From: Chromatiales bacterium
Lineage (GTDB): Bacteria > Pseudomonadota > Gammaproteobacteria > Chromatiales > Chromatiaceae
Reading direction: 5' to 3'
NCBI GenBank assembly: GCA_024762485.1
Contig: JANTHH010000002.1
Coordinates: 1-40,117, forward strand
Length of the DNA: 40,117 nucleotides
Position 1 is the first letter of the stretch. Each line of letters opens with the position of its first letter. Made by a program: the position numbers and the translations under genes. Positions 25,141-40,117 of this stretch are shown here, piece by piece. The notes below the pieces were generated by a model. The model was given only the letters and a program-made list of their open reading frames with translations. It searched no databases and was not told where the DNA came from.

Positions 25141-25692
25141 TTGACCGAGCAGATTACGACCTCGCAACAGGTTTTCGAGCTCCTTGCGGATCTCGAGCAG
25201 CGCAGTCATACACATGCCCGTGTGCTGCCGATGGAAGTTCAGCAGGCAGATGTCTGGTCCGGGCTCACCTTCATGCTTGATGGCGTGCGCATGGTCTCGG
25301 CGATGAACGAGACCAACGAGATGCTCGCCCACCCCGAGCACATCACCGCGGTGCCCAAGGCGAAACCGTGGATGCTGGGGCTGGCGAATCTGCGCGGAAA
25401 CCTGATGCCGATCATCGATCTGCAGGCGTTTGTCGGCGGCAAGCCTATTGTGCCCGGCAAGAGCACACGGGTGCTGATCATCAACCAACGTGGCCTCACC
25501 TGTGGCCTGCTGGTTTCCAATGTGCTCGGCATGCGTCATTTCAACGAGGCGAATCGAATCAGTCACGCGCGAATGGATGGCACCATCGGCAATTACATCT
25601 TCGAGGCCTTCGGTCTCAACAAGGAGGTGTGGCCGGTATTCAGCATGTCGGCCCTGGCCGCGGACCCGGAGTTCCGATCCGCTGCGGCCTGA
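25141..25692 (+). CDS. pilI: CheW-like adaptor PilI
   Basis: TTG start; CheW-like fold ([23 protein letters not shown]); between pilH and pilJ. Confidence 0.93.
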
Positions 25693-25756
25693 GGCTGCCT
25701 TTATAACGAAGAAACTGGAAGTCTACTGGCCGTCGAGACGACGCCATACCAGGGGG

Positions 25757-27811
25757 ATGTCAATGAAGTCTGTGATCAAGAAAAGTGGCCGCGAAGGCAG
25801 CAAGGCCATACCGTTGCTGGCCGGGCTGCTGGTCATCACCATCGTGCTTGCGGCGCTGTCTTTCGCGCACGTCTCGAAACAGCAGTCCTATAACGAGCAA
25901 TATCTGCTCAATGCCGCAGAGCAACAGGTACTGGCACAGAAGATCGCCAAGTATTCCATCGAGGCCGCGTTGGGTGACGAGGCCTCGTTCCCCCCGCTGA
26001 AGACCGCGCGCGACCGTTACGAGCAACTGCTGAAGGAATTGCGCGACGGTAACAAGTCGAAGGGATTGCCGCCGTCACCCGAGCCGGTCGCCCAGGAACT
26101 TGCCGCTGTCGAGACTGCATGGAACGAATTGCGTGACCGGGCAGATGAGATCCTCGTCAACCGCGAGGCCATCGTGACCATCGGTGAATTCATCAGTGTC
26201 ATCACCGAATTCATCCCCCAGTTGTCGGAGGTGTCGGATCAGGTGGTGCAGATCCTGATCCGCAAAAAGGCCGATCCGCACCAGATCTATCTGGCCAGTC
26301 GCCAGCTGATGCTCGCGCAGCGTATCGAGAACAACGTCAAGCGGATCCTGGAAGGTGGTTCCTCCACCGCAGTGGCCATCGACCAGTTCAGCCAGGATGC
26401 AGATCAGTTCGGGCGGGTGGTCAACGGCATGCTCAAGGGCGACAGCAGCATGGGCCTCAAGCGGGTCGATGACCCGGATGCGGAGCAGAAGCTGCGCGAG
26501 GCACTGACGCTGTTCAATTCGGTCAGTGACCATGCTGACGAGATCATCGAGACCACCCCGTCGGTGCTGCCCGCGCTGGAGTCGGCCAGCGACATGGGTG
26601 AGGTCTCCGAGGAGCTGGATGCCAGGACGCGTGAGCTGATCACGGCCTATGAGAGCGTCCCCGGTCTGCTGCATGTGGGTCCGATCCGTATTGACCTCAC
26701 CGTGGTGACAATACTGGGCGCCGCAGCCCTGTTCTTCCTGGTGTTGCTGGGTTTTGCCCTGGTGAACGACGCACGCCGCCGGGAGCGGGAAAGCGCAGAG
26801 CAGTATCAGCGTAATCAGGCGGCCATCCGCCGCCTGCTGGATGAGCTCGGCGATCTCGCCGACGGTGATCTCACCGTCGAAGCGACAGTCACCGAGGACA
26901 TCACCGGCGCCATCGCTGACTCCATCAACTACGCCATCGAGGCCATGCGCGGACTGGTCGCCACCATCAACGATACCGCCGGCAAGGTCTCGACCTCCGC
27001 CCAGGAGACACGTTCGACCGCCATGCAGCTGGCCGAGGCATCGGAGAAGCAGCACGACGAGATTGCCGGCACCACCGAAACGGTGCGCGAAATGAACAAG
27101 GCCATCGAGCAGATGGCAGAGGACGCCGGCAGCTCGGCAGAGATCGCACAGCGTTCCCTCGACGTCGCAGCCGAGGGCGGGGAGACGGTACGCCGCTCCA
27201 TCAGCGGCATGGACAATATCCGTGAGCAGATCCAGGAGACATCCAAGCGGATCAAGCGCCTGGGCGAGAGTTCACAGGAGATCGGCAACATCGTGGAGTT
27301 GATCGAGGATATCGCCGACCAGACCAACATCCTGGCCCTCAACGCCGCCATGCAGGCGGCGATGGCCGGCGAGGCAGGTCGTGGCTTCGCGGTGGTTGCC
27401 GACGAGGTGCAGCGACTGGCCGAACGCTCCTCCAACGCCACCAAGCAGATCGAGGCACTGGTGAAGACCATCCAGGCGGATACCAGCGAGGCGGTCAGCT
27501 CGATGGAATCCAGTACTTCCGAGGTGGTCAGCGGTGCCAAGCTCGCCGAGGATGCCGGACAGGCGCTGCAGGAGATCGAGGAGGTCTCCCGCAATATCGC
27601 CGAGGTGACCCGCCGGATCGCCGAGTCCGCGCGCCACCAGTCGGAGGAGACGAGCCAGATCAACGACAGCATGAACCACATCCAGGAGGTCACTACCCAG
27701 ACCACCGAGGGCAGCAACCAGACGGCCGCGGCCATCGGTACCCTCGCCGACATGGCGGACGACCTGAAGAAGTCAGTCTCCGGCTTCCGTCTTCCCGAAG
27801 AAGACAAGTAA
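25757..27811 (+). CDS. pilJ: Methyl-accepting chemotaxis protein PilJ
   Basis: Two TM helices, HAMP-like region, MCP signalling tip [42 protein letters not shown]. Start 25757 or 25763. Confidence 0.94.
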
Positions 27812-27853: not shown

Positions 27854-30800
27854 ATGCAGCCTGAACAGGCACAGGATTTCAGTACCCTGCGATGGGTTCG
27901 CACGCCGCTGGATGAGACCATCCGCCAGGCGAGACGGGCCCTCGAGGCCCACGTCGAAGGTGACGGCGCAGATGCGGGCATGGTCGCCTGTGCCAAGGCG
28001 TTGCACCAGCTCAATGGTGTGCTTCAGGTGGTGCAGGTCTATGGCGGCGCCATGCTGGTCGACGAGATGGAGCAGGTTGCCAAGGCCATTGCGGATGGCA
28101 GGGTGGGGCGTGAGAAGGATGCCCTCGAGGCCCTGGTTCTCGGTCTGGTGCAGCTGCCCGCCTACCTTGAGCGCGTGGAGATGGGTGAGCCGGACATCCC
28201 GCTCATCCTGTTGCCGTTGCTCAACGACCTGCGTGCCGCGCGTGACAGGCCGCTGGTCTCGGAGATCTCGCTGTTCGCGCCGAATCTCGAACAGCTGATC
28301 AATGCCGAGACGGTGGTGCCCGGCAGCGGCAATCCGGAGCTGCCGTCGATCATACGCAAGAACCGGGCGGATTTTCATCGTGGCCTGCTGAGCTGGTTCC
28401 GTGACCAGGACAGTGCCGTGGGGCTGCGCCGTATCCGCGCCTTTCTCGAGGCAGTCAGCAGCCAGAGCGGCACCTCGCGGCTGCGTCGCATCCTCGATGC
28501 GGCTGATGCGCTGGTGGTGGCCATCCAGGAAGGCACGCTGGACAACAGCATGGCGATCAAGCTGATCTTTGGCCAGCTCGACCGCTTCCTCAAACGGGTC
28601 ATTGATGACGGTGAAGAGGCGGCGGTCAGCGATTTCCCCATCGAACTCCTGAAGAACCTGCTTTATTACGTCGCCCTCTCGCCCTCTGACAACCCCGTGA
28701 TCGAGGCGGTGCGTCATTCGGCTGATCTGGCCAACACCTTCCCGGTTCACGAACTGTCCGAACTGGCGGATGACCGACTTGGCGGTGCCGGGCGTGAGTT
28801 GTTCGAGGCCGTCAGCAACGCGCTTCGTCAGGACCTGCTGCAGGTCAAGGACGAGCTCGACCTCTTCATGCGCGCGGACGATGCTGACACCAGTCGCCTG
28901 GCCGGGATGATCGAGCCGTTGCGTCGCTCTGCCGACACCCTGGGCATGATCGGTCGTGGCGAGCTGCGGGCGCATCTGAAGGATGCGGGCGACCGCCTTT
29001 CCGATTGGGCCGATCAGGGCGAGCGACCGGCAGAAGACGATCTGCTCGCGGTGGCCAGTGCCATCCTGCGCGTGGAATCGGCGCTGGCGGGTCTCGAGCC
29101 GACGGTGAAGAGCAGCCAACCGGTGGCCGAGCAGTCTGCGGAGCAGGCACTGACCAGCGGCGAGCTGCAGGTTCATGTCGCTGCAGCCATCCAGGAGGCG
29201 TTTGTCGATCTCTCACGGGTCCGGGAATCGGTCAGTGCCTATCTCGATGCCCCGGATGACGTGAAGCGGCTGTCCGGACTGCCGCGCAGGCTGCACAGCG
29301 TTTCGGGCGCACTGCGTATCCTCGAGCAGCCGGAGGTGGCGGGCCAGCTCGATCATCTCGGTGCCTATCTGGAGGGGGTGGCCCGGGGGGATTCGACCGC
29401 TCCCGACGCCGCGCAGCGGGATGCTCTCGCCGAGATCATCACCGGCATCGAATATTACCTGGAGGCGGTGCAGGAAGGCCGCCCGGGCGAGCAGGAGATC
29501 CTCGACTTCACCCAGCAGGCGGTACGGCGTCTGAATGTCGGTGATCTGCTGACGAAGATGGAGGAGGCGCCGGCAGCACAGCCACAGGCCCAGCCAGTCG
29601 AGCCGGTGGCCGCCGCAGCCCAGCCGGTCTCGGAGGATGTGGATCAGGAGATCCTCGATATCTTTCTCGAGGAGACGGAGGAGGAGCTCGAACGGATCCA
29701 GGAATTCTATCCCCGCTGGCGAGCCGATCAGCAGGACCAGGAGGCGTTGCAGACCGTGCGGCGCTCCTTTCACACGCTCAAGGGCAGCGGCCGGCTGGTC
29801 GGCGCCCTGACGATCGGCGAGTTCGCCTGGTCGATCGAAAATCTCTTCAACCGGATCATCGACAACACCATAGCGATCACCGATCAGGTGCTCGCCCTGC
29901 TCGACGAGGCCGTGGCCATGTTGCCCGAGATGGTGGCCGCACAAGCCACCGGAACCGTGCCGCAGGTCGATCATGCCGCGATTGAGGCGCGGGCCTTCGA
30001 GCTCGCCAGTGGCATGCCCCAGGAGGGCGGCTCAGTGGCACCGGCTGGAGAGGCCGGTGTCGTCGCCTCGCCGGAGCCGGCTGCAGCGGAAGAGTCGTCC
30101 ACGGAGGAGGTCTCCGATGCCGAACGCGCTGCACTGGAGACCGACGAGGCCGAGGTCGCCGCCGAGCTGGCCGATCTCGACGAACTGGTCTCCACGCCGC
30201 TGGAAGAGATCGAGCTTCCGGACCTGGAGATGCCAGAGCTGGATGTGTCCTCGCACGAGCAGCTGGTGTCTGAAGAGGAGGACCTCGAAGAGATCACCCT
30301 CGATGCAGACTCCGTCCCGGCGCTTGCCGAGGAGTCGATTGAAATCACCCCCCCGGCCGAAGAGACGGTTGACCGGGAGCCTCAGACCGGCCCCGTTGCG
30401 GGGGAGGAGAGACACGAGGTAGACGCGTCAGAACTGCAGGAGGAGGAGGCCCAGGAGCCTGAGTCCATCCTCCTGATGCCCGAGAGCGAGCCCGAAACAG
30501 AACCCGAGATCGAGCCGGAGCCTGCGGCCATCACACTGGATCCAGCCCTGGCGGAGATCTTCGGCAATGAGGCCAAGGTCCACCTGCAGACGCTGGCGGA
30601 CTTTCTCGCCGAATGCGATACCGCACCCTGCGAGCCCACTGACGCACTGGCGCGTGCCCTGCATACCCTGCGTGGCAGTGCACATATGGCCCAGGTCGAC
30701 CCTGTCGCCGAGGTGGCGGGTGCCGCGGAGGATCTGGTCAACCTGTTGCGCCAGCATGGCCGGCGCGCAGAGTCGCCGGTCATCCGGATGTTGCAGGAGG

Positions 30801-33547
30801 TCCGGGATACGATCCGTGCCGTGCTCGATGTGATCAACGTACCAGGCAGCGAGCTGCCGTCCTGGATGGATTTGCAGTCCGCACTACAGGCGAGCCGCGC
30901 CGCACTGGAAGAAGAGATTGAACGTCAGGCTGCGGTGGACGCGATCAGCCAGCCGAGCGAGGTGGTCGACGAGGAGCTGCTCGAGATCTTCCTCGAAGAG
31001 GCCCGGGAACTGTTCGAGCAACTTGAAGCGGCCTACGGCCGCTGGGTGTCGAAGGCCGACGACGAGGCGTTGCTCGAGTTGCAGCGTGCGCTCCATACCT
31101 TCAAGGGCGGTGCCAGGCTCGCGGGGCTGGTTCAACTCGGTGATCTTAGCCACGCCATGGAGTCGTTGTTCGATGCCCTGGTGGAAGGCCGAGTCCCCGC
31201 AGACGAGACAGTGCATGCACTGGTTCGAAGCGGCATCGATCAGCTCGCCGTGGAGACCGATCGTGTCGAGCGCAGGCAGGTGCCCGGCGACACGAGTGCG
31301 CTTGTCCATGCCATGGAATCCGCTGCGCGTGGTGAACTGGCCGCTGCGGCAGAAACCGTCTCCGGGACCGCCGTCTCCACCCCGAGCGACGAAGAGGTGC
31401 TCTCCGAGCCGGTATCCGAGCCCCAGCCCGAGGTTGAGGAGTCGATCCTCATGGAGGAGGTGGACTCGTCCCTGGAGGAGGCCTCATCACTGCTCGCCGA
31501 TTCGTCACTGATCCGCGATTCCCAGCTGCTGACCGATTCCGAACTGCTGGGTGAAACCGATTTCTTCGAGGACAGCCAGGCGACCTTTGAGACGAGCGAA
31601 GGTGAAAGCCGCATCATTCGTTTCCCAGGCAGTGAACTCGAGGAGGGCGCTGACGTGCCACGCCGGTTGCCTCCCGAGCCGGAGGCGGCCGAACCGGCGA
31701 GCGCCAGCCAGGAACAGGTACGCGTGCGCGCCGATCTGCTCGACCAGCTGGTCAACAGCGCGGGCGAGATCAGCATCTATCGGTCACGCATGGAGCAGCA
31801 GAACCTGACACTGGGGTTCAACCTGCAGGAACTGGGACAGACCACTGCCCGCCTGCGCGATCAGCTGCGTCATCTGGAGATGGAGACCGAGGCACAGATC
31901 CTGGCGCGCTTCGAGCGCGAGCGGGAGGAGCAGGAGGCGGTTGAAGGTGACTTCGATCCGCTGGAGATGGATCGCTACTCGACCATCCAGCAATTGTCCC
32001 GCTCTCTGGTGGAGACAGTGACAGACCTTGCCAGTATCGGTGATGCACTGGAGGAACTCGGCCGTGATACGGACACCCTGCTGCTGCAGCAGGCGAGGGT
32101 GGGTAATGATCTGCAGGACGGTCTGCTGCGCACCCGCATGGTGCCCTTCGGCACCCAGGTCAACCGTCTGCAGCGAGTGGTGCGTCAAGCGGCGCAAACC
32201 ACCGGTCGACAGGCGGAACTCGTGGTCAACGGTGCCGAGGGCGAGGTGGATCGCAGCATTCTCGGCCGTATCCTCGGCCCACTGGAGCACCTGCTCCGCA
32301 ACGCGGTGGCACACGGCATCGAGCCGGTGGCCGGACGCCGTGCGGCTGGCAAACCTGACACCGGGAGGATCGAACTCTCGGTCAGCCGGGAAGGCCCGGA
32401 TGTGTTGATCCGGGTCCAGGATGACGGCGCGGGTCTGGATCTCGAGGCGATACGCGAACGCGCCATCGCCAAGGGCATGCTCGACCCGCAGGCCGAGGTC
32501 AGCGATGCAGACCTGCAGCAATTCGTGCTCGAGCCCGGCTTCAGCACGGCCGACGAGGTCACCCAGGTGGCCGGACGTGGCGTCGGCATGGATGCCGTGC
32601 TCAGCGATGTCAAACAACTTGGTGGCTCCCTCGACCTGTCTTCGGAGACGGGCCACGGACTGGGGATCACCATACGGCTGCCATTCACACTGTCCATCTC
32701 CGAGGCCCTGCTGGTGACGGTCGGCGACGACGTCTATGCCGTGCCCCATGCCAACGTGGATGGGGTGGCGCGGATCTCACGCGAGGATCTGCTGGCCTGT
32801 TATGAAGGACGCAAGGCATCGTTCGAGTATCTCGGGCAGGAATACCTGGTGCGTTATCTCGGCGCCTTCATCGACGCCAGTGCGGCGGTTCTGCCGGAGA
32901 GCCAGAAGTGGTTCCCGATCCTGCTGTCGCGCGTCGGCGATCACCGGGTCGCACTGCACGTGGACAGCCTGATCGGCAACCGTCAGGTGGTGACGAAGTC
33001 GGTCGGTGTGCAGCTCAGCACGGTGCGCTCCATATCCGGCGGCACGATTCTCGCCGATGGGCGCGTGGCGTTGATCCTCGACATCAAGGGACTGGTCCAC
33101 ATTGACACCACTCAGCCGGTGATGCCTGTCGAGCCGGTTGAAACGGTGGAGGAGGCAGCCGCACCTGAGGCGACGACGGTCATGGTGGTGGATGACTCGA
33201 TCACCGTGCGCAAGGTCACCAGCCGGCTGCTGGAGCGGCACAACATGAATGTAGTGACGGCGAAGGATGGTGTCGATGCGGTGACGCTGCTGGAAGAGCA
33301 TCACCCGAGCATTATGCTGCTGGACATCGAGATGCCGAGGATGGACGGCTTCGAGCTGGCCCGTCATATGCGCAATACACCGGAGCTGCAGGATATCCCG
33401 ATCATCATGATCACCTCGCGGACGGGTGAGAAACACCGGCAGCGGGCGATGGACCTCGGTGTCCAGCGCTACCTGGGCAAGCCCTACCAGGAGAACGAGT
33501 TGCTCGACAATATCTACACGGTGCTTGCGGAGGCCGGACATGCTTGA
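27854..33547 (+). CDS. chpA: ChpA-like multi-Hpt CheA hybrid histidine kinase, 1897 aa
   Basis: Hpt motifs SFHTLKGSGRL, ALHTLRGSAHM, ALHTFKGGARLAG; H-ATPase NAVAHGIE...GRGVGMDAV; CheW domain; C-terminal REC VMVVDDSITVRKV...LLDIEMPRMDGF. Confidence 0.95.
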   Translation: MQPEQAQDFSTLRWVRTPLDETIRQARRALEAHVEGDGADAGMVACAKALHQLNGVLQVVQVYGGAMLVDEMEQVAKAIADGRVGREKDALEALVLGLVQLPAYLERVEMGEPDIPLILLPLLNDLRAARDRPLVSEISLFAPNLEQLINAETVVPGSGNPELPSIIRKNRADFHRGLLSWFRDQDSAVGLRRIRAFLEAVSSQSGTSRLRRILDAADALVVAIQEGTLDNSMAIKLIFGQLDRFLKRVIDDGEEAAVSDFPIELLKNLLYYVALSPSDNPVIEAVRHSADLANTFPVHELSELADDRLGGAGRELFEAVSNALRQDLLQVKDELDLFMRADDADTSRLAGMIEPLRRSADTLGMIGRGELRAHLKDAGDRLSDWADQGERPAEDDLLAVASAILRVESALAGLEPTVKSSQPVAEQSAEQALTSGELQVHVAAAIQEAFVDLSRVRESVSAYLDAPDDVKRLSGLPRRLHSVSGALRILEQPEVAGQLDHLGAYLEGVARGDSTAPDAAQRDALAEIITGIEYYLEAVQEGRPGEQEILDFTQQAVRRLNVGDLLTKMEEAPAAQPQAQPVEPVAAAAQPVSEDVDQEILDIFLEETEEELERIQEFYPRWRADQQDQEALQTVRRSFHTLKGSGRLVGALTIGEFAWSIENLFNRIIDNTIAITDQVLALLDEAVAMLPEMVAAQATGTVPQVDHAAIEARAFELASGMPQEGGSVAPAGEAGVVASPEPAAAEESSTEEVSDAERAALETDEAEVAAELADLDELVSTPLEEIELPDLEMPELDVSSHEQLVSEEEDLEEITLDADSVPALAEESIEITPPAEETVDREPQTGPVAGEERHEVDASELQEEEAQEPESILLMPESEPETEPEIEPEPAAITLDPALAEIFGNEAKVHLQTLADFLAECDTAPCEPTDALARALHTLRGSAHMAQVDPVAEVAGAAEDLVNLLRQHGRRAESPVIRMLQEVRDTIRAVLDVINVPGSELPSWMDLQSALQASRAALEEEIERQAAVDAISQPSEVVDEELLEIFLEEARELFEQLEAAYGRWVSKADDEALLELQRALHTFKGGARLAGLVQLGDLSHAMESLFDALVEGRVPADETVHALVRSGIDQLAVETDRVERRQVPGDTSALVHAMESAARGELAAAAETVSGTAVSTPSDEEVLSEPVSEPQPEVEESILMEEVDSSLEEASSLLADSSLIRDSQLLTDSELLGETDFFEDSQATFETSEGESRIIRFPGSELEEGADVPRRLPPEPEAAEPASASQEQVRVRADLLDQLVNSAGEISIYRSRMEQQNLTLGFNLQELGQTTARLRDQLRHLEMETEAQILARFEREREEQEAVEGDFDPLEMDRYSTIQQLSRSLVETVTDLASIGDALEELGRDTDTLLLQQARVGNDLQDGLLRTRMVPFGTQVNRLQRVVRQAAQTTGRQAELVVNGAEGEVDRSILGRILGPLEHLLRNAVAHGIEPVAGRRAAGKPDTGRIELSVSREGPDVLIRVQDDGAGLDLEAIRERAIAKGMLDPQAEVSDADLQQFVLEPGFSTADEVTQVAGRGVGMDAVLSDVKQLGGSLDLSSETGHGLGITIRLPFTLSISEALLVTVGDDVYAVPHANVDGVARISREDLLACYEGRKASFEYLGQEYLVRYLGAFIDASAAVLPESQKWFPILLSRVGDHRVALHVDSLIGNRQVVTKSVGVQLSTVRSISGGTILADGRVALILDIKGLVHIDTTQPVMPVEPVETVEEAAAPEATTVMVVDDSITVRKVTSRLLERHNMNVVTAKDGVDAVTLLEEHHPSIMLLDIEMPRMDGFELARHMRNTPELQDIPIIMITSRTGEKHRQRAMDLGVQRYLGKPYQENELLDNIYTVLAEAGHA

Positions 33548-37243: not shown

Positions 37244-38086
37244 TCAGCCCCCCAGCCCCAGCCTGCGCCAGATGGCCAGCGACGGGCCGGCCTGGTTCAT
37301 AGTGTAGAAGTGCAGTCCGGGCACGCCGCCGGCCAGCAGACGCTCGCACAGTGCCGTGACCACGTCCTCGCCGAAGGCGCGGATGCTGGCGATATCGTCA
37401 CCGTAGGTCTCCAGGCGCTTGCGGATCCAGCGTGGGATCTCGGCGCCGCAGGCGTCGGAGAAACGGGCCAGGTTGCTGTAGTTGGTGATGGGCATGATGC
37501 CGGGGACGATGGGGATGTCGATGCCGGTCTGCTGGCAGCGGCCGACGAAATCGAAATAGGCATCGGCATTGTAGAAATACTGGGTGATGGCACCGTTGGC
37601 GCCGGCATCCACCTTGCGCTTGAAATTCGCCAGATCGGCATCCGCGTTGGCTGCCTGCGGGTGTACCTCGGGGTAGGCGGCGACCTCGATGTGGAAGTGA
37701 TCGCCCTGCTCGGCGCGGATCAGTGCCACCAATTCGTTGGCGTAGCGCAACTCGGACAGGGCTCCCAGGCCGGCGCCCGAGGGCAGGTCACCACGCAGTG
37801 CCACGAGGCGTCTGATGCCCTGCTTTCTGTAGCGGTCGAGGATATCGAGAATCTCGTTGCGGTCCGAGCCGATGCAGGAGAGGTGTGGCGCGGTCTCGAT
37901 GCCCTGGTCGCACAGCCAGTCCACGGTGGCGTAGGTGCGCTCCCGGGTGGAGCCGCCGGCACCGTAGGTCACCGAGAAATAGGTCGGACTGACGGTGTTG
38001 AGTTCGGCCACTGCGGCCTTGAGATTGTCCATGCCCTTGTCGGTCTTGGGCGGGAACAGTTCGAAACTGAAAGTCTTGTCTGCCAT
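37244..38086 (-). CDS. metF: Methylenetetrahydrofolate reductase
   Basis: FSFELFPPKTDKGMDNL, SVTYGAGGSTRERT, LVALRGDLP. Start MADKTF at 38086. Confidence 0.95.
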   Translation of the reverse strand: MADKTFSFELFPPKTDKGMDNLKAAVAELNTVSPTYFSVTYGAGGSTRERTYATVDWLCDQGIETAPHLSCIGSDRNEILDILDRYRKQGIRRLVALRGDLPSGAGLGALSELRYANELVALIRAEQGDHFHIEVAAYPEVHPQAANADADLANFKRKVDAGANGAITQYFYNADAYFDFVGRCQQTGIDIPIVPGIMPITNYSNLARFSDACGAEIPRWIRKRLETYGDDIASIRAFGEDVVTALCERLLAGGVPGLHFYTMNQAGPSLAIWRRLGLGG

Positions 38087-38119
38087 GGCAGAAAGGCCCC
38101 CTTGTTCAGGAAACAGGAT

Positions 38120-38150
38120 GGGGCGGGTCGCCATTCAGGTGACCCACCCC
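38120..38150 (-). other. Strong hairpin between ahcY and metF
   Basis: Minus strand GGGGTGGGTCACC-TGAAT-GGCGACCCGCCCC; 12 of 13 pairs allowing GU; no U run. Confidence 0.55.
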
Positions 38151-38195
38151 GTGCCGTTCAGGTTTGGCAGCACCCCGGGGTGCGCCGCTGCCTGC

Positions 38196-39602
<1,407 letters not shown>

Positions 39603-39629
39603 GGTTGATTGCCTCTTTGTTCAAACGTG

Positions 39630-39705
39630 AGTGAGCGTCGTTGAGTCTGTGGCACCGTTTCCGAGCCTGGCGACATTCGTTGATGTCGTCGCAACGCTCC
39701 TCGGG
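39630..39705 (-). ncRNA. SAH riboswitch upstream of ahcY
   Basis: Minus strand CCCGAGGAGCGTTGCGACGACATCAACGAATGTCGCCAGGCTCGG...AACGACGCTCAC. P1 CCGAG/CUCGG, inner CGACAU/AUGUCG hairpin, pseudoknot GAGCGU/ACGCUC. Confidence 0.93.
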
Positions 39706-39711
39706 AACAGG

Positions 39712-39728
39712 CCCCGGCACGGCCGGGG
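39712..39728 (-). other. GC hairpin between metK and the SAH riboswitch
   Basis: CCCCGGC-CGT-GCCGGGG, 7-bp perfect stem; no U run. Confidence 0.45.
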
Positions 39729-39791
39729 GATGATGTGATAGGCCTTATCGTCTGGCGATGTCCTTTCTTGATGGTGCGCCCTCGAGCCGGC

Positions 39792-40117
39792 TTACAGGCC
39801 GGCGTCGGCCCGCAGGGCCTCGGCGCGATCGGTGCGCTCCCAGCTGAAGTCCGCGTCCTCGCGCCCGAAGTGACCATAGGCGGCGGTCCGGCGGTAGATC
39901 GGCTTGATCAGGTTGAGCATCTGCATGATGCCCCAGGGACGCAGGTCGAAGTGTTCGCGGACCAGTACGGCGATGCGATCCTCGTCGATCTTCGAGGTGC
40001 CAAAGGTGCTGATGTTGACAGAGGTGGGCTCGGCCACGCCGATGGCGTAGGAGACCTGGATCTCGCATTTCTCCGCCAGCCCGGCGGCGACAATGTTCTT
40101 GGCCACGTAGCGCCCGG
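39792..40117 (-). CDS. metK: S-adenosylmethionine synthetase, C-terminal part, truncated by window edge
   Basis: [40 protein letters not shown]. Confidence 0.95.

Follow-up and report, generated by a model that had tools for sequence, protein, structure and literature searches.

What controls the S-adenosylhomocysteine hydrolase gene ahcY in this member of the Chromatiales, how might the signal reach the gene, and does it extend to metF, the next gene downstream? The locus lies on the minus strand at the end of the window, i.e. the whole analysed stretch of 40,117 nucleotides. The original prediction placed an S-adenosylhomocysteine (SAH) riboswitch there, within a metK-ahcY-metF cluster, and proposed that SAH might control metF by read-through as well.

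The aptamer and its genes

The covariance-model search suggested along with the original prediction (cmscan, Rfam 15) gave a match to the SAH riboswitch RF01057 at 39708-39626 of the minus strand, with 61.4 bits (gathering score, 37 bits), an E value of 4.5e-9 and full coverage of the model (positions 1-78 of 78). No further Rfam family matched in the window; the SAM/SAH riboswitch RF01727 was considered as well and has no match there. The element is the only copy of the SAH riboswitch in the host genome, and none of the control genomes (0/14) contains RF01057. Of 194 genomes in the host's family, 176 carry it (153 of 156 if only good-quality genomes are regarded), and so do 154 of 369 genomes sampled from the class. 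Its occurrence in 153 of 156 good family genomes marks the element as a regular representative of a class already known.

The conserved core segments GAGGAGCGUUGC, CCAGGCUCGG and ACGCUCAC are all present, as predicted. Besides the core, the prediction had named P1, an inner hairpin and a pseudoknot of 6 bp. According to the Rfam alignment, P1 is formed by UUCCCGA (39701-39707, minus strand) and UCGGAAA (39658-39664, minus strand) with six standard pairs out of seven, the remaining one being a C.A mismatch (a small correction), and the P2 hairpin CGACAU-CAACGA-AUGUCG (39671-39688, minus strand) has all of its six. The pseudoknot is present too, but is best counted as 5 bp between GAGCG (39695-39699) and CGCUC (39633-39637; both minus strand), with GUUG/CAAC adjoining. 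As the pseudoknot is not part of the Rfam model's scoring, it was tested separately on 258 distinct aptamers. Compensatory changes were found at three of its five pairs (AAGCG/CGCUU five times, GGGCG/CGCCC four times and GAACG/CGUUC twice), and a broken pair in L213 and L216 only.

Gene identities were assigned by NCBIfam profiles, which bore out the metK-ahcY-metF cluster. The ahcY gene (38196-39602, minus strand; 468 amino acids; TIGR00936, 655 bits, cut-off 497.6) directly follows the riboswitch. Its AUG (39602) lies 23 nt beyond the last position of the Rfam match; counted from the CGCUCAC core, the distance is 27 nt, close to the 28 nt originally given. The next gene is metF for methylenetetrahydrofolate reductase (37244-38134, minus strand; TIGR00676, 335.8 bits, cut-off 293.7). 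Such a position upstream of a gene for SAH recycling (ahcY, metF or metH) is characteristic of the class and is found likewise in the relatives. The longest metF frame carries an N-terminal extension of 16 residues; homology and a purine-rich site favour the internal Met at 38086, which is probably the true start. On the other side of the riboswitch ends metK (39792-40115, minus strand), represented by its C-terminal 107 amino acids only (TIGR01034, profile positions 276-375) because the contig ends at 40117. The closest AhcY in named genomes (93% identity) belongs to an unclassified gammaproteobacterial metagenome-assembled genome (BWSM_30), followed by those of Candidatus Thiodiazotropha, Sedimenticola and Chromatiales (82-84%).

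No sigma-70 promoter was found between metK and the aptamer in the window, and no intrinsic terminator on its minus strand, either from the aptamer to ahcY or from ahcY to metF. GC-rich hairpins without a clear U tract occur in the ahcY/metF gap (38087-38195) and in the metK/aptamer gap (39715-39735); they were set aside, as these spacers differ in the near relative L222/L032. Elsewhere in the window, a PilJ-type chemotaxis receptor (25490-27811) is followed by a Hpt/CheA-type kinase of 1897 amino acids with CheW and receiver domains (27854-33547); the two make up a Chp-like pair for type IV pilus signalling.

SAH riboswitches bind SAH, discriminate strongly against SAM and activate gene expression upon ligand binding; the class is reportedly the subject of a paper by Wang et al. 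from 2008 (Mol Cell 29:691). Judged by its sequence, the element preceding ahcY is a true SAH riboswitch of the ordinary kind, and the call of the original prediction is confirmed by the full-length match, by ahcY immediately 3' of it and by the same arrangement throughout the family. The sequence core, P1, P2, the pseudoknot and the position before ahcY are those of the class, and the aptamer itself shows no differences; particular to the lineage of the window is the proposed expression platform, in which the pseudoknot 3' strand has its partner in ahcY codons 1-3. The SAM/SAH riboswitch RF01727 overlaps with the class in ligand range, also possesses an H-type pseudoknot and also controls a methyl-cycle gene, but it has another fold and another target (metK in Rhodobacterales, PMC2864571).

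The riboswitch in related genomes

ahcY and metF are the core of the SAH riboswitch regulon in beta- and gammaproteobacteria (PMC4239095), and both core targets recur here. In the relatives, metF directly follows ahcY at 112 of the 133 sites for which enough sequence was available; the end of metK lies no more than 400 nt upstream at 153 of 203 sites. Taken together with the published core regulon, these counts identify the cluster of the window as the normal arrangement. SAH riboswitches have been stated not to control metK (PMC4239095). The metK gene of the window precedes the riboswitch and is outside its control. However, at eight sites in relatives (L170, L185, L197, L159, L054, L056, L061 and L067), all in metK-ahcY-metF clusters, an SAH riboswitch is located directly before metK, with a gap of 27-151 nt between aptamer and gene and with alternative hairpins of its own; three of the eight have a second copy before ahcY. 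By their sequence, these metK-linked riboswitches appear contrary to the published statement on metK and would extend the known regulon. At three further sites (L160, L187 and L196), ahcY, metF and metK are all absent from the 3.3 kb downstream of the riboswitch, and the targets are perhaps metH or rRNA methyltransferase genes. The latter have been named in the literature in connection with SAH riboswitches.

Predicted pairing of the pseudoknot strand with the ahcY start

The 3' strand of the pseudoknot together with its tail forms the sequence GCUCACUCA (39628-39636, minus strand; here referred to as the switching strand), which is complementary to AUGAGUGAGU, i.e. to the ahcY start codon and codons 2-3. 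Folds were calculated with ViennaRNA, whose model includes neither pseudoknot nor ligand. In the ligand-free minimum-energy fold of the leader, GCUCACUCA (39636-39628) pairs with UGAGUGAGU (39601-39593), and in the free ensemble the start region (AUGAGUGAG and the following U, 39593-39602, minus strand) pairs with the switching strand with a mean probability of 0.89. The Shine-Dalgarno sequence AGAGG, as read from the sequence (39612-39616, minus strand; 9 nt before AUG), is placed in the loop of this hairpin. The hairpin and the pseudoknot share GCUC and are therefore mutually exclusive, which predicts activation by the ligand. With -15.4 kcal/mol, the start-codon hairpin has a z score of -2.9 (reached by 11 of 1000 shuffles), similar to the class mean for the local hairpin (-2.75, 53 leaders); the leader as a whole is no more stable than its shuffles (z -0.79). 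When the pseudoknot 3' strand is blocked, at a cost of 9.0 kcal/mol, the mean unpaired probability of the start rises from 0.11 to 0.33 (0.43-0.71 for the AUG itself). As ACUCAC still pairs with GUGAGU in this state, the predicted release is partial.

The complementarity to the start codon might be incidental, if the aptamer acted sterically near the ribosome site, or if Met-Ser-Glu were kept for the sake of the protein or of initiation efficiency. The Shine-Dalgarno sequence is unpaired to ~0.7-0.8 in both predicted states, as this explanation would have it, and the joint occurrence of tail and start clusters by phylogeny. Of 133 family sites, 90 possess both the CACUC tail and the AUGAGUGA start and 43 possess neither, with no discordant site (this split pools two sets, 37+16 and 53+27, and counts L251, the start of which was mis-called, as concordant). 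On the AhcY tree, however, it corresponds to 5-6 changes only, so that the association holds consistently but has no independent significance; independent pairs all point in the same direction (two on supported branches, five in all), too few for a sign test.

The codon evidence is the stronger part of the sequence comparison and argues against an incidental match. Where family members start with Met-Ser-Glu/Asp, AGU serves as codon 2 in all 50 rows and GAG as codon 3 in 49 of the 50, whereas codons 4-11 of the same rows vary synonymously. With codon usage inside the same ahcY genes as the reference for ATGAGTGAG starts, AGU is rare, accounting for 4.7% of the other Ser codons. Conserved codons have a median of nine changes on the tree and codon 2 has zero, a count that is less independent than it looks, since the start class is partly defined by AGUGA. 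Furthermore, L189 and L121 share the N-terminus MSEFTDYK but encode its Ser by UCU, and they have no CACUC tail. In family members with Met-Ser-Asn/His/Gln starts, the Ser codon is AGC and the tail is GCUCAU, which is complementary to AUGAGC. Across 72 families (one site each), own tails pair better with the downstream region than foreign ones (-12.3 vs -9.4 kcal/mol, p 5e-10).

Two cases of triple covariation, in which the 5' and 3' strands of the pseudoknot and the downstream partner change together, also speak against the incidental explanation. GAGCG/CGCUCAGU/ACUGA is changed to AAGCG/CGCUUAGU/ACUAA (L310, L316 and L319, which represent one genus, compared with L226, L249 and others), and GAGCG/CGCUCAUUAUU/AAUAAUGAGC to GAACG/CGUUCAUUAUU/AAUAAUGAACG (L061 compared with L197). 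This is the pattern expected of a strand that can pair with either of two partners. L230, with GAC as codon 3 and GUUC in the pseudoknot strand, was rejected as a further compensatory pair, as its altered bases do not pair with each other. All in all, we consider an incidental complementarity improbable.

Transcriptional control, in which the RNA would terminate before or early in ahcY when free of SAH and be read through into ahcY and metF in its presence, appears less probable still. It draws on relatives from other families, in which the switching strand is part of a terminator-like hairpin with U residues behind it (L184, GCUCAUC..GAUGAGC-UUUUUUU; L157), whereas no terminator-like site was found between aptamer and ahcY in the window, where the gap to the AUG is only 23 nt and the switching strand has the start codon as its predicted partner. 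A degenerate or chance match devoid of riboswitch function, for which one could cite the single C.A mismatch in P1, is hardly conceivable in view of the score and E value, the occurrence in the family (176 of 194 genomes, or 153 of 156 when only good ones are counted) and the compensatory changes in the pseudoknot.

Probable translational control and its consequences

The RF01057 riboswitch of the window is thus most probably a translational ON switch, with SAH freeing the ahcY start codon. Class membership, gene context and the mutually exclusive complementarities with their comparative conservation have direct support here; that SAH is bound, and the direction and level of the control, we infer from what is known of the class and from the two competing pairings. 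In the absence of SAH, GCUCACUCA would pair with UGAGUGAGU to give a hairpin of 9 bp, which would bury the ahcY start codon together with codons 2-3 and carry the Shine-Dalgarno sequence in its loop. Once SAH is bound, the pseudoknot would keep the 3' strand paired with GAGCG, so that the hairpin would lose its base and the AUG would become available. AhcY would then remove SAH, closing a feedback loop. A similar principle is known from the add adenine riboswitch of Vibrio vulnificus, a translational ON switch in which the ribosome-binding site and the AUG are occluded without ligand and freed by it (PMC10907184). Aptamer and ligand are different there, and in our case, where the sequestering hairpin is a predicted one, the switching strand also makes up one half of the aptamer pseudoknot.

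Across the class, this strand has different partners. In some lineages its partner is the start codon (e.g., GUUCAU with AUGAAC), and in others a sequence close to the Shine-Dalgarno (L178, CUCAUACU/AGUAUGAG) or a terminator-like hairpin (L184). It is likely, if with less confidence than the ON switch itself, that the riboswitch of this gammaproteobacterial lineage reaches into the coding sequence, with ahcY codons 1-3 acting as an anti-pseudoknot strand that is kept at the nucleotide level, and that, more generally, the 3' strand of the SAH pseudoknot is a portable switching strand, the partner of which has shifted between start codon, Shine-Dalgarno region and terminator in the course of evolution.

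As to metF, its place under SAH control stands as a matter of regulon membership, which has already been published (PMC4239095), but the proposed read-through is disfavoured. Read-through implies transcriptional control, yet no intrinsic terminator was found from the aptamer to ahcY or from ahcY to metF, and the predicted switch is at the ahcY start. Any response of metF would be indirect, with translational coupling, mRNA stability or Rho-dependent polarity being likelier causes than read-through.

The riboswitch itself is a textbook one, and metF is an established regulon member. The start-codon platform appears well supported by the comparisons and predicted folds, and it is possibly undescribed. 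It would give SAH riboswitches a concrete expression platform in which the pseudoknot strand can pair alternatively with the ahcY start codon, and the three-way covariation supports switching between two folds. It would also represent a case of regulatory RNA constraining synonymous codons within a gene, as the sequence comparison suggests that this lineage has retained codons 2-3 of ahcY as an element of the switch.
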